This document shows positions 24,038 to 28,022 of a stretch of DNA of 64,000 bases, one piece after another. The notes beneath the pieces were generated by a model, which had not been told where the DNA came from, did no database searches, and saw only the letters and a program-made list of their open reading frames with translations. Source of the stretch: Flagellimonas alvinocaridis (GTDB lineage: Bacteria; Bacteroidota; Bacteroidia; Flavobacteriales; Flavobacteriaceae); contig NZ_SNTZ01000004.1 of assembly GCF_004916895.1 (NCBI RefSeq), positions 124,001 to 188,000 of the forward strand, read 5' to 3'. Within the stretch, counting starts at the first letter, position 1, and the number at the start of each line of letters is the position of its first letter. Made by a program: the position numbers and the translations under genes.

Positions 24038-24598
24038 TTGGAAAGTAGATTTACCAAATACATAAGTACTGATGAACAAATTTTATGGGAAGGTAGACCC
24101 ATAATTCATAAATCGAATTTTCTTTATGTAACTTTTTTGTTCACTACAGGTTTATTCATCATCTTGGTTTCTCTAATATGGACTTTTACAGTCTTTATAA
24201 ATGATGCTCCAGTCCTATTTAAAATATTTGGAACCCTATTTTTACTTATTGGAATTTTTCAATTAATAACTAGAACCGTTCTGCACAGAATCAGAAAATC
24301 TAAAATCTACTATGCCATAACCAATGAAAGAATATTTATAGAATATTGGTTCTTCAGAAAACATATTAAAAGCTATAGTATTAAACTATTACCCAAGCCC
24401 ATACTCAAACCATACTCAAAAGGAGTCGGGACAATTTTAATCAATTATGATAAGCCATGGTCATATAAAATATTCACAATTGGAATAGAGTACACTTGGC
24501 GCGATCAATGGCGAAGATTAGAACATATTACCAATGCTGCTGACGTTTTTAACTTAATAAATGTCCAAAGGAACATTTTAAATCATTCTAAGCTTTGA
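24038..24598 (+). CDS. small membrane protein with PH-like domain, TTG start, AT-rich
   Basis: A 186-residue product. There is no ATG in the frame before the membrane segments, or any Met after the start, so the TTG at 24038 is the likely start codon. Two hydrophobic segments lie at about 30-52 and 62-80, followed by YYAITNERIFIEYWFF, a pattern of bacterial PH-like membrane proteins. Base composition is visibly more AT-rich than its neighbours and codon use differs, suggesting recent acquisition. Its last 21 bases overlap the 3' end of the convergent ATP-grasp gene. Function unknown. Confidence 0.72.
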   Translation: MESRFTKYISTDEQILWEGRPIIHKSNFLYVTFLFTTGLFIILVSLIWTFTVFINDAPVLFKIFGTLFLLIGIFQLITRTVLHRIRKSKIYYAITNERIFIEYWFFRKHIKSYSIKLLPKPILKPYSKGVGTILINYDKPWSYKIFTIGIEYTWRDQWRRLEHITNAADVFNLINVQRNILNHSKL

Positions 24599-25621
24599 TT
24601 CCAAAGCCTCATGATCTCTAAGCATGGCCCTACCGTCTTTGAAGCTTAAATAGGAATGTCCTTTTTTATGATTGAGAATGCTCACTTCATTCATATAACC
24701 CCAATGCTTGGCAATTTCGCGCCATGCGAAAAACAGGGAATGCTTGGGATCGTAAATATGGGTAGCCTCTCCCCCTGCCCCATTGATTTCAATCACACTA
24801 AAATTTTTGCCTAGGCTAAGCTCTTCAAAAGAATTGTACAACACATCCAACCGACCATAATGGAACTCTCTCATTTGGGAACAGATGCTGTTTACGACTT
24901 TTTCTAGGCCATCATTTAATTTATCGGTGATGTCCACAAATTTTGCGCCCCGAGTATGGCTTCCATAAGGCACCAGAATAAATTCCTCACCTTCCTTTAG
25001 CACTGTCTTTAACGTTTCTCCGAACTTCTTTTCCAAAGCCTTTAACTGTAAATGGCTCCGATACTCCTTTTTGATCAATTCTTCAATGGTGTTGGTTCCA
25101 TTTCCAATGACGGAAAGAAATTCTTTGGACACAATGCCCGTGACCCTCCCCTTTTCCGAACCCGGTATACGCACATAAAAAATACCCACTTCCTTGGTAT
25201 ACGGAATGAGTTCCTGCACCAAAAAATGGGATGGGGTACGCTTAAGATAGTTTTTAAATTCGTCCTTATTGTAGATTTTATCCACCCCAAAGGCCTTCAT
25301 CCCTATATCTGGTTTGGCAATGAAGGGAAAGCCAATATCCGATGCCAAAATTCTTTCCAGAGCCAGCTTGGAAGATTCATTTTTACCAACAAATACGGTT
25401 TTGGGGATAAACTGTTGCGGGATCATCTTATAGATCTCCATTTTGGATTCCATGGCCATACCCCCATTCTTCATGGCCGGATTTGCGGCATTGAAAAAGA
25501 AAAAGGAACGCGCCTTGATGGAATAATACAGCCAAACCGGAAACAATGGGTAGTAAATGGCCCATAACGGCCAGTACTCCCAATGGGTTAGCTTGTGCCA
25601 TTTTAGTTTAAAGCTGCTCAT
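24578..25621 (-). CDS. ATP-grasp ligase-like protein (D-Ala-D-Ala ligase-like fold)
   Basis: The 347-residue product begins with a hydrophobic stretch (about 16-38) that may anchor it to the membrane. An ATP-grasp fold follows: FPFIAKPDIG (ATP-binding Lys), FLVQELIPY, a middle lobe, and FHYGRLDVLYN plus FSVIEINGAGGE (metal-binding Asp/Glu/Asn triad). Related proteins are often named D-alanine-D-alanine ligase, but the N-terminal segment and context differ from Ddl, and no other mur gene is beside it. It is the last gene of a four-gene overlapping operon and starts inside the stop of the NRDE gene (ATGA). The acceptor and donor substrates are unknown. Confidence 0.78.
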   Translation of the reverse strand: MSSFKLKWHKLTHWEYWPLWAIYYPLFPVWLYYSIKARSFFFFNAANPAMKNGGMAMESKMEIYKMIPQQFIPKTVFVGKNESSKLALERILASDIGFPFIAKPDIGMKAFGVDKIYNKDEFKNYLKRTPSHFLVQELIPYTKEVGIFYVRIPGSEKGRVTGIVSKEFLSVIGNGTNTIEELIKKEYRSHLQLKALEKKFGETLKTVLKEGEEFILVPYGSHTRGAKFVDITDKLNDGLEKVVNSICSQMREFHYGRLDVLYNSFEELSLGKNFSVIEINGAGGEATHIYDPKHSLFFAWREIAKHWGYMNEVSILNHKKGHSYLSFKDGRAMLRDHEALESKLRMI

Positions 25622-26340
25622 TTTATGGGTAATATGGATGTGGATGAAAAGGGCAATTCATAGAATTTGTCATCGAGAAGGTCAAAATGACGTAATAACA
25701 TATCTTCCTGATCAATGACTACTTGGGTAACACTGAAGGTTTTAAGTCCGGTTTCACGATCAATGATAAAACCGTTTTCAAAATCCTCATGATTGTTGGA
25801 ATGGAAATCCACCACATCGGAGGCTTCAATATGGTCTTGGTCTTTCAAAAAATCCTCGAACATTTTGGCCCTTCGGGCAATCACCTCATCACTGTACAGG
25901 GTCGCCGAAGACCAAATATGGTTTTTAGACTTGTCCAATGGCCTAAAATATTTCTGGCTCCCATCCCATCGAAATTCCAATAGATTTCCATTGAGCAACA
26001 CCAGGGTGAAGGGTTCTATCTGGTATAAATCCATTTTTTGCAACAGTAACTCGGGCTCGGCGGAAGCTATCACATCCAACAATACCAATCCCCTACTCTT
26101 GGCATAGGGCCCTTGTGTCTGATGCCGAACAAAAGCCCCATTGAGCAAAACGGCCACATGTCCCAATTCATTGAGAGCAAACCAGGTTCCCCCTGCCTTA
26201 GGGTCCTTAGGAAATACAACCTTCAAGGAACCGATCATCTCTTCCTTGGGTTCAAAAGCCAAGGGGCGTGACACATGCTCATCACGATTGGAAGTAATAA
26301 AATATTTACCCCGTTCTGAGATGAAACTTACTGTGCACAT
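25618..26340 (-). CDS. NRDE family protein (TANGO2-like, Ntn-hydrolase fold)
   Basis: A 240-residue protein starting MCTVSFI, with Cys2 placed as the N-terminal nucleophile typical of Ntn hydrolases. The NRDE signature is present as ITSNRDEHVSRP (about 16-27), followed by GGTWFALNELG and VLLNGAF. In animals the homologue TANGO2 is linked to haem and lipid handling; the bacterial role is unknown. Its start lies 13 bases inside the DinB-like gene and its stop overlaps the ATP-grasp start by 4 bases, so it is part of a coupled operon. Confidence 0.85.
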   Translation of the reverse strand: MCTVSFISERGKYFITSNRDEHVSRPLAFEPKEEMIGSLKVVFPKDPKAGGTWFALNELGHVAVLLNGAFVRHQTQGPYAKSRGLVLLDVIASAEPELLLQKMDLYQIEPFTLVLLNGNLLEFRWDGSQKYFRPLDKSKNHIWSSATLYSDEVIARRAKMFEDFLKDQDHIEASDVVDFHSNNHEDFENGFIIDRETGLKTFSVTQVVIDQEDMLLRHFDLLDDKFYELPFSSTSILPIK

Positions 26341-26819
26341 GCCTGTTTGTGTTGTATGGTTGAAGGAGCCACGCCAAACGACTCTGGAAGCTCCATTTTA
26401 GTAAAATGTTGTATCCCCACTTTAATGAGTGCATGATGATGGATCGTATGTTCCAGGTTGTACATGACCTCCCTGAAGTAATTGGAATCCAAACAGGTTT
26501 CTGCCCCACATAAATCATAAGTAACCTTTATGGACTTATTGGGTCGTTCCAATTGTCTCTGAATCAAGTCTAACTGCTCAATCGCATAAGACAATTCTAG
26601 TTCAATACGTTGATTTCGTTCTCTACGGTCATAGGATACATCGGCCTGATCATACCCTTTCAGCAAGCATAGATAAAGTTCAATGATGTGTCTTGTATGC
26701 TGACCGATAGTTGAGTTAAATAGAACAGTGCACGATTTTGAGTAACATTCCCCCGGGATTTGCTGGAGGATTTGCTTGAACTGCTCAATGGTGTCCACAG
26801 AAGATTTGAACATACTCAT
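26328..26819 (-). CDS. DinB-like metal-dependent protein
   Basis: A 163-residue four-helix-bundle-type protein. Candidate metal ligands are His in IGQHTRHIIEL (about residues 40-44) and the His cluster in HTIHHHALIKVG near residue 130, matching the spaced His triad of the DinB/YfiT superfamily. Members include bacillithiol and mycothiol S-transferases, and ypdA lies 4 kb away, so a thiol-transferase role is possible but inferred. It overlaps the LysE-type gene by 4 bases (ATGA) and the NRDE gene by 13, within the four-gene operon. Confidence 0.72.
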   Translation of the reverse strand: MSMFKSSVDTIEQFKQILQQIPGECYSKSCTVLFNSTIGQHTRHIIELYLCLLKGYDQADVSYDRRERNQRIELELSYAIEQLDLIQRQLERPNKSIKVTYDLCGAETCLDSNYFREVMYNLEHTIHHHALIKVGIQHFTKMELPESFGVAPSTIQHKQACAQ

Positions 26820-27469
26820 TGTGTTTTATAGTTTAATCGTTTTTTGATGAACAGGTACATAAGATAGAAAGAAAATCCAAGGTATAGCAATCCCATGAGG
26901 AGATTGGTCACCCTGCTGTAATCATTATAATTTGTAAGAATATATTTTCCGGCTAGGACAAAAACACCCAGTCCGATCATGGTGCCAACACCGATTCCTG
27001 AGATGTAAAAGGAATAGTACTTTAGGTTTGCTCTTAAAATGCCTTTGTTTTCCAACACCTTGTTCCAAGTCATCCAAAATGGTATTTGAAGGGGATTCAA
27101 GGCACTGAGCAAAAATCCGAGCATGAAGGTGGACTTCAATTGGGGCAATACATCTATTTTAGAATCCACTTCGCTGATTTTGGCCAAATCCATAAAATGG
27201 GAAACAGACAAATACATCAATAATAAAACCCCGAACGGAAGAAGGTAATCCATGACTTTTCCATCCATTTGCAGTCTTTCAGTCCCATACAGGGTTAACC
27301 GCACCACTACAAGTTCCACCAAAATTACGGCAAGGCAAAACCATAGGGCCGAATACGTTCCCTGGGAAGCAGCAATATCAAAAGCCGTTAGGTTTAGTGT
27401 TCCTAAAGGCAATGCCCCTAAAAAACTAATGAGAAGACCTGAAAAAGCAACTTTTAAACAGTGTTTCAT
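26816..27469 (-). CDS. LysE-family exporter
   Basis: A 217-residue inner membrane protein with about six transmembrane segments (for example 8-28, 40-58, 73-90, 112-130, 150-172, 185-207). The N-terminal motif ALPLGTLNLTAFDIA and the central SALNPLQIPFW (a form of the family's NP motif) are characteristic of LysE/RhtB transporters, which export amino acids or related small molecules. It is the first gene of the four-gene operon. Substrate unknown; the downstream ATP-grasp enzyme suggests an amino acid or peptide-like product. Confidence 0.82.
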   Translation of the reverse strand: MKHCLKVAFSGLLISFLGALPLGTLNLTAFDIAASQGTYSALWFCLAVILVELVVVRLTLYGTERLQMDGKVMDYLLPFGVLLLMYLSVSHFMDLAKISEVDSKIDVLPQLKSTFMLGFLLSALNPLQIPFWMTWNKVLENKGILRANLKYYSFYISGIGVGTMIGLGVFVLAGKYILTNYNDYSRVTNLLMGLLYLGFSFYLMYLFIKKRLNYKTQ

Positions 27470-27575: not shown

Positions 27576-28022
27576 TTACCGATTCTTTATTTTTTCCCAG
27601 TTCTTGTCCGCCTTTGTTTTTAGTTTATCCGGAGATTCATTCTGCCAGAGTTTCAAGGTATTGGTGTTTCCGGAATTATAGAACAGATACAACTTGTTGT
27701 CCCTAATTTCGAACGTTTTGGGATCCACATTCACTTTCTTTCCGGATACGGCCACTGCATAGGCGCAATATCCTCCATACTCAGGAAGATAGTTATTGGG
27801 CATTGCCTTGAACTTGTCCAAATTTTCCTGATTGTGAAACTTGAATTGTACCCCATCAAACTCAGTGGAGAATTTTTTGAGGCCCTCTTTGGCCTTCCCA
27901 TCAAAGTATGCCACAACGTCATATCCATTGGCGGCATACCCCTTTTTAACATTGTAATCTACGGACTGAGCCTGAAGAAACGTTCCCATCAAAAGGAACA
28001 GTACCACTACTATTTTTTTCAT
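27576..28022 (-). CDS. secreted YHS domain-containing protein
   Basis: A 148-residue protein with a signal peptide (MKKIVVVLFLLMGTFLQAQ). The mature part has the layout of exported YHS proteins: GYAANGYDVVAYF, FKFHNQENLDKF, and YLPEYGGYCAYAVA with a single conserved Cys. YHS domains are associated with metal handling; the periplasmic role here is not established. It lies 106 bases upstream of the LysE operon in the same direction, without a clear terminator between. Confidence 0.85.
   Translation of the reverse strand: MKKIVVVLFLLMGTFLQAQSVDYNVKKGYAANGYDVVAYFDGKAKEGLKKFSTEFDGVQFKFHNQENLDKFKAMPNNYLPEYGGYCAYAVAVSGKKVNVDPKTFEIRDNKLYLFYNSGNTNTLKLWQNESPDKLKTKADKNWEKIKNR

Follow-up and report, generated by a model that had tools for sequence, protein, structure and literature searches.

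A conserved ATP-grasp ligase and exporter gene unit in Flagellimonas alvinocaridis and other Bacteroidota, with a probable role in amino-acid conjugation

A stretch of 64,000 nucleotides from Flagellimonas alvinocaridis (Flavobacteriaceae; contig NZ_SNTZ01000004.1, positions 124,001 to 188,000), hereafter the window, carries on its minus strand four overlapping genes that encode a LysE-family translocator, a DinB-like protein, an NRDE (TANGO2-family) protein and an ATP-grasp ligase. These genes, usually accompanied by a gene for a YHS-domain protein, are a conserved unit rather than a product of chance compaction. The probable role of the unit is to couple an amino acid to a second molecule, which may be a membrane lipid, and to carry the resulting product through the membrane. 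We favour, with a probability of about 0.4, a reading in which a membrane-bound ligase acts on an acylated amino acid and either LysE or a DedA domain serves as the translocator; that the substrate is a lipid is a guess, as are the roles given to NRDE and DinB.

Gene neighbourhoods were compared across 101 loci, comprising 20 wider loci of an order-level set, 80 named loci from a ligase profile search and the window itself, with five duplicates among them; the named loci, the closest among at least 584, are a sample biased in favour of the unit. DinB, NRDE and the ligase occur together in 89 of the 101 loci, and the ligase stands alone in 7. LysE also adjoins in 76 loci, upstream in 15 and downstream in 61, and its retention on either side of the other genes is strong evidence of shared function. 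Of the named loci, 58 extend over more than 20 kb; in these, DinB and NRDE recur without exception, LysE in 55 and the upstream YHS gene in 43, whereas the seven other window genes that flank the unit recur in 0–5. The order-level set contains the ligase in 21 of its 118 genomes: within 1.5 kb on each side, 13 of these carry DinB, NRDE and the ligase, one carries DinB and the ligase, and seven carry the ligase alone. The initial annotation had proposed a single function for the four genes, and had allowed that their overlaps would be chance compaction if they were rarely neighbours elsewhere. They proved to be regular neighbours, and chance compaction is ruled out by the conservation of the locus relative to the flanking genes, by the moved but retained LysE and by co-occurrence across 296 genomes; the same three lines of evidence support one functional unit. 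A viral origin was also rejected, as no relative was found in viral contigs when a single protein was used as the query.

The co-occurrence was counted in an evenly drawn sample of 296 Bacteroidota genomes, using counts and Fisher tests that ignore phylogeny. The ligase is present in 56 genomes and the DinB subfamily in 51. They share 48 genomes; eight have the ligase but no DinB, and three of the 240 genomes without the ligase have DinB. In 41 of the 48 shared genomes, the two genes lie within 5 kb on one strand. NRDE matches occur in 43 genomes, of which 28 are strong; strong NRDE is found with the ligase in 25 genomes and adjacent to it in 20. The lines between strong and weak matches were placed at visible gaps after inspecting the match lists: for NRDE between 2.2e-57 (weakest strong) and 3.1e-26 (best weak), leaving 15 of 43 genomes out of the strong count, and for LysE between 1.0e-38 and 1.8e-27, leaving out 28 of 48. 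The tight LysE subfamily so defined (E < 1e-37) occurs in 20 genomes, none from the lineage, described below, in which the ligase is fused to other domains. All 20 carry the ligase, bearing out the proposed tie between ligase and exporter. In one genus (g2), 12 of 17 sampled genomes contain the ligase and the same 12 contain DinB; gain and loss apparently affect the unit as a whole.

This restriction of the tight LysE subfamily to ligase genomes would also suit the main rival explanation, namely that a small soluble amino-acid conjugate or dipeptide is produced in the cytoplasm by the ATP-grasp enzyme and exported by LysE, NRDE being an amidohydrolase with a processing function and DinB an accessory enzyme. 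In three genomes the ligase directly adjoins LysE without NRDE beside them (G146, G150 and G220), which again fits such a product; the LysE of G150 falls outside the tight subfamily, and G146 has a different DinB gene (PF05163) just behind LysE. Passages of a report on Pantoea and Pseudomonas natural-product clusters describe ATP-grasp and LysE-type genes, each separately (PMC4010436). The context of the fused lineage, set out below, speaks against this explanation, which we regard as possible but rather doubtful.

The four minus-strand frames of the window, with overlaps of 4, 13 and 4 bases, were confirmed. The LysE gene (26816–27469; 217 aa; PF01810, 46.6 bits against a cut-off of 25.6) overlaps the DinB gene (26328–26819; 163 aa) by four bases at 26816–26819. 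The DinB gene overlaps the NRDE gene (25618–26340; 240 aa; PF05742, 49.9 bits against a cut-off of 22.6) by 13 bases at 26328–26340, and the NRDE gene in turn overlaps the ligase gene (24578–25621; 347 aa) by four bases at 25618–25621. The fifth member, encoding the YHS-domain protein (27576–28022; 148 aa; NCBIfam NF041384, 120.7 bits against a cut-off of 70), lies upstream of LysE on the same strand and had fallen outside the initial annotation.

Of the three junctions, only the 13-base overlap between DinB and NRDE is conserved; the other two vary and depend on the chosen start codon. An alternative start at MF..., used by several relatives with an upstream LysE, would turn the LysE/DinB overlap in the window into a 2-base gap, and spacing at this junction ranges from -76 to +6 (16 loci, window included). 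The NRDE/ATP-grasp spacing ranges from -103 to +161 (90 loci, window included, with starts unrefined). The DinB/NRDE overlap is exactly 13 bases in 86 of 89 pairs, five duplicate-locus pairs among them. It is fixed because the NRDE start, MCTV, which is invariant in 28 rows and reads C-A-Q-stop in the DinB frame, sets those bases; the DinB tail, C-A-Q in 63 and C-V-Q in 22 of the 89 pairs, is a by-product. A Bacteroidota-type promoter consensus matched the window at two positions, a number no higher than chance would give, and both lie far away from the unit. Sigma-70-like sites numbered three between 23900 and 28500 against 12.9 expected, one of them (27703–27675) within the YHS gene. As these scans located no promoter for the unit, its reading as one transcript rests on spacing and conservation. 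Beyond the ligase gene lies a convergent membrane-protein-like frame (24038–24598) that overlaps the end of that gene by 21 bases; it is weakly PuhB-like (25.3 bits against a cut-off of 110) and has relatives in none of the 58 long loci.

The ligase is predicted to be an ATP-grasp amide ligase. Its model (pLDDT 94.2) superposes on the cyanophycin synthetase structure 7wae with a Z of 18.3 and an rmsd of 4.1 over 268 aligned residues, and its top structural matches include cyanophycin synthetases, GshAB, LysX/ArgX, RimK and Ddl (Z 12–18). All of these are amide or peptide ligases, a likeness that also favours a soluble conjugate. Residues K103, E144, R257, D259, E278 and N280 are invariant in 48 ligase rows. 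K103 (KPD.G; codon at 25313–25315) corresponds in the alignment to the KP lysine of CphA2 and GshAB, and E278-x-N280 (24782–24790), which we take to be a metal-binding motif, to their E-x-N. The model fold together with the invariant ATP and metal residues upholds the initial assignment to this fold. The window protein scores below the cut-off of every named Pfam or NCBIfam family that it touches, including PF13535 (14.5 bits, cut-off 27) and the cyanophycin synthetase equivalog TIGR02068 (22.8 bits, cut-off 850).

Residues 19–37 (25511–25567) form a hydrophobic helix in the model and probably contact the membrane. Mean hydropathy of this segment is positive in all 48 rows (mean 1.01, a moderate value; 0.85 in the window protein), and this, together with the DedA domain to which the ligase is fused in two proteins that were scanned, turns the possible membrane anchor suggested initially into a probable membrane contact and argues against a soluble product. 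The comparisons show a conserved unit, predicted folds, intact motifs, fusions and co-occurrence; the chemistry of the ligase, its membrane contact and the direction of transport are what we infer. Elsewhere among the loci, another ligase subgroup (L163, L169, L179 and L180) adjoins a divergent iron-sulphur protein gene, TfrB/LdhH-like on the scan of L163, the one such locus scanned; in L163 (G383), two ligase copies flank NRDE.

A second lineage of the ligase provides the main argument for an acylated substrate. In 25 of the 56 ligase genomes (families f36, f42, f54 and f57), the ligase lies within an open frame of 812–907 aa, interrupted in one genome (G200) by a stop inside the match. Ten of the 25 loci were read (L152–L161) and two of the fused proteins were domain-scanned. 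In the loci read, the ligase is the C-terminal domain; a VTT/DedA domain (PF09335, 3.8e-14 and 2.3e-17) is present in both scanned proteins, one of which also shows a clear alpha/beta hydrolase domain (PF00561, 1e-24). All 25 genomes have, within 5 kb of the ligase and on its strand, a gene for an OlsB-type acyltransferase (PF13444); DinB stands beside the fused ligase in 19. The ten loci contain an OlsB-like GNAT gene, usually a PlsC/OlsA-like gene (read by eye except in L153) and DinB; the exceptions, also by eye, are L156, with no PlsC gene, and L158, with no DinB. In L153, the neighbours score best to OlsB (NF052555, 9.4e-42) and OlsA (NF052553, 1.2e-34) and the DedA domain to UptA, in each case below the model cut-off. 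None of the 25 genomes has strong NRDE or tight LysE, with a weak NRDE match in four, and NRDE/LysE and OlsBA/DedA therefore look like alternative modules. The OlsB/OlsA-like context, with PF13444 in 25 of 25 genomes, and the ligase-DedA fusion run counter to a soluble conjugate. As to the product named in the initial annotation, an amino-acid conjugate or small peptide for export, they point rather to an acylated amino acid or lipid.

In the reading that we favour, the ATP-grasp enzyme would be located at the cytoplasmic membrane, on its inner face, where it would use ATP to link a carboxylate to an amino acid or amine through an amide bond; at least one of the two is probably a lipid head group or an acylated amino acid. 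The product, or the lipid bearing it, would be translocated by LysE in the free-standing lineage or by the fused DedA domain in the other. The NRDE protein would handle the acyl group, as a partner that binds or transfers it, a task that OlsB/OlsA-like acyltransferases would take over in the fused lineage; DinB, as a probable metal-binding four-helix protein, may perform a further step or protect or recycle an intermediate. A lipid substrate is proposed because of the fused lineage, the hydrophobic helix and, weakly, passages of a report on human TANGO2, which binds acyl-CoA in a manner abolished by mutation of the NRDE motif (PMC11867700). Also counted for the favoured reading are YceI genes near some cassettes, an MMPL-family gene near one DinB-NRDE pair, an OlsF-like gene in the window genome and a 596-aa protein in G347 in which NRDE and ATP-grasp are fused.

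Several observations weigh against this favoured reading. The helix at residues 19–37 is only moderately hydrophobic, and LysE relatives with tested substrates move amino acids. DinB does not stand beside the ligase in 6 of the 25 fused-lineage genomes. The ten fused ligase rows form one clade (100/100, in a tree with several long branches and support not fully settled), so that their context counts as one event; the alternative-module pattern may accordingly be a single event. No PF13444 gene was found in the window, and the one PF13444 match in its genome, on another contig, is the OlsF-like gene (NF052615, 6.1e-123, 411 bits against a cut-off of 620). At E up to 1e-6, PF13444 goes unmatched in 12 of the 56 ligase genomes, G347 with its NRDE-ligase fusion among them, and the ligase is missing from 78 genomes that do have PF13444. 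None of the 11 genomes with a PF13444 match in a frame of 306–370 aa (putatively GlsB-like) carries the ligase. Acyltransferase activity was ruled out for human TANGO2, according to passages of the same report (PMC11867700).

From the PF13444 counts, it follows that a known OlsB/OlsF product cannot be the general substrate. Ornithine lipid was not adopted as the general substrate on account of the 12 ligase genomes without a PF13444 match, and these genomes keep the soluble conjugate as the main rival. The serine-glycine lipid flavolipin would be an attractive specific product, but was set aside because the putative GlsB-like genomes lack the ligase.

A different explanation starts from DinB. 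In a thiol or oxidative-stress unit, DinB would be a bacillithiol S-transferase with YHS and DoxX as redox partners, LysE would export a thiol conjugate and the ligase would trim or build it. The DinB model (pLDDT 95.4) does match BstA (5wk0, Z 11.5) and mycothiol S-transferase (8f5v, Z 11.1). Of the 101 loci, 53 contain genes of a family judged DoxX-like by eye and 48 contain a Crp-like regulator; a Crp-like protein and a similar DoxX-like protein were domain-scanned in L166. BshC is present in 290 of the 296 genomes, that of the window included, but being nearly universal it does not track the cassette and is uninformative on bacillithiol dependence. Function-unknown DinB proteins match the model equally or better, as with 6iz2, a DinB protein with no known function (Z 15.0, rmsd 2.3, 131 aligned residues), and the OlsB/OlsA/DedA context is left unexplained. 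We therefore consider a thiol unit unlikely.

For DinB itself, the top Foldseek rows are DinB-family entries (best E 1.7e-3). Pfam searches at E up to 1 give no DinB match for the window protein; among its siblings in 39 rows, PF12867 matches 19 and PF05163 matches 12 (E up to 0.1). H41, H44, H124, H127 and H128 are invariant in these rows. H41/H44 and H124-x3-H128 (26436–26450), the residues of the three-histidine metal site of DinB proteins, are present, and metal binding is predicted; H124-x3-H128 aligns with EHEIHH of YjoA (3dka) in a weak match (E 0.044). Of what was first proposed for this gene, the DinB-type assignment holds, on the model fold and the invariant histidines, while thiol transfer is only possible, since the fold matches function-unknown DinB proteins too.

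In the NRDE protein, M1-C2-T3-V4 and R19-D20-E21 are invariant in 28 rows. Cys2 (26335–26337) may be an N-terminal nucleophile, and the motif N18-E21 is encoded at 26278–26289. Passages of one report describe heme binding by the bacterial TANGO2 homologue HtpA (PMC10470608), from which a heme-trafficking unit with NRDE as an HtpA-like chaperone could be drawn. The heme role of the family is disputed in passages of a further report (PMC12782551), and no heme or cytochrome gene was recognised by eye among the recurrent neighbours, with no family search made. This explanation strikes us as the least credible of those weighed here.

It could also be supposed that the ligase modifies a cell-wall precursor or recycled muropeptide, with DedA or LysE moving a lipid-linked product. 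A partnerless ligase has an N-acetylmuramic acid 6-phosphate etherase gene in its vicinity in L035 (G026; gene identified by scan), and genes of etherase-like appearance, judged by eye, are near partnerless ligases in L037 (G057) and L038 (G066). In G061 (L181), a DinB gene on the other strand adjoins an etherase-like gene. The Ddl-like fold of the ligase and the nearness of the L153 DedA domain to UptA, below cut-off, are consistent with such a role. These etherase loci come from only four genomes of one family, and all 25 fused-lineage loci carry PF13444 instead; a cell-wall role is very unlikely.

Other neighbours of the cassettes were recorded. YceI-like genes lie near cassettes in other families of the class (L165 and L178, scanned; L170, by eye), and ECF-sigma-like genes near those of L165 and L168 (by eye). 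The L178 locus (G230) reads YHS, DoxX-like, YceI, DinB and NRDE, followed by a protein-glutaminase-like gene (PF18626), with the ligase and LysE on other contigs. In L173 (G158), DinB-NRDE without the ligase adjoins a TseH-like gene (PF25218), and an MMPL-family gene (PF03176) lies slightly further away.

The unit is present across several Bacteroidota families; the environmental flavobacteria Flagellimonas aequoris (L042) and Maribacter polysiphoniae (L052) are among its carriers. It could represent an undescribed, widespread pathway in which acyl-amino-acid lipids are extended by a second amino acid or amine, with a membrane-bound ATP-grasp ligase and DinB as the core and an acyl module (NRDE/TANGO2 or OlsB/OlsA) and a translocator (LysE or DedA) that are exchangeable, a proposal that we put forward tentatively and think improbable. 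On this proposal, if true, the biochemical role of bacterial TANGO2 proteins would lie in the handling of acyl groups. Should a lipid or acyl conjugate be made, an ATP-dependent ligation step would be added to bacterial aminolipids, and the bacterial TANGO2 proteins, whose function is disputed, would be placed in a testable pathway. In the case of a soluble conjugate, common bacteria of marine and freshwater habitats would be secreting a metabolite that is not yet known.

Among the open-licence PubMed Central papers listed by searches for the unit or its combinations, none describes it in the title or abstract shown, in keeping with the first impression that this is not a recognised pathway. 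Passages of a 2024 aminolipid review mention 'ATP-grasp' nowhere but in the references (PMC11631085), and passages of a study of Flavobacterium johnsoniae report ornithine, lysine and low-abundance glycine lipids (PMC4484230). The Pantoea and Pseudomonas natural-product clusters have ligase or LysE-type exporter parts in common with the unit, but belong to a different phylum, and passages of that report describe neither the two parts in a single cluster nor DinB or NRDE partners (PMC4010436). The ligase shares its fold, ATP lysine and E-x-N motif with the ATP-grasp peptide ligases (cyanophycin synthetase, GshAB, LysX, RimK and D-Ala-D-Ala ligase), but differs in its hydrophobic helical N-terminus, a conserved region of its own (NP...GG...ESK) and NCBIfam scores below the cut-offs. 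Likeness to the OlsB/OlsA ornithine-lipid pathway is seen in the fused lineage, with its PF13444 gene near the ligase in 25 of 25 genomes and the OlsB/OlsA-like neighbours in L153; the window unit has no adjoining PF13444 gene. The DinB/YfiT thiol transferases (BstA and mycothiol S-transferase) have the same four-helix fold and H...HxxxH pattern, whereas the window DinB lacks a DinB Pfam match and thiol transfer by it is only possible. With TANGO2 and HtpA, the window NRDE protein shares PF05742, the NRDE motif and Cys2, but here it stands within a ligase-exporter unit and, in one genome, is fused to the ligase.

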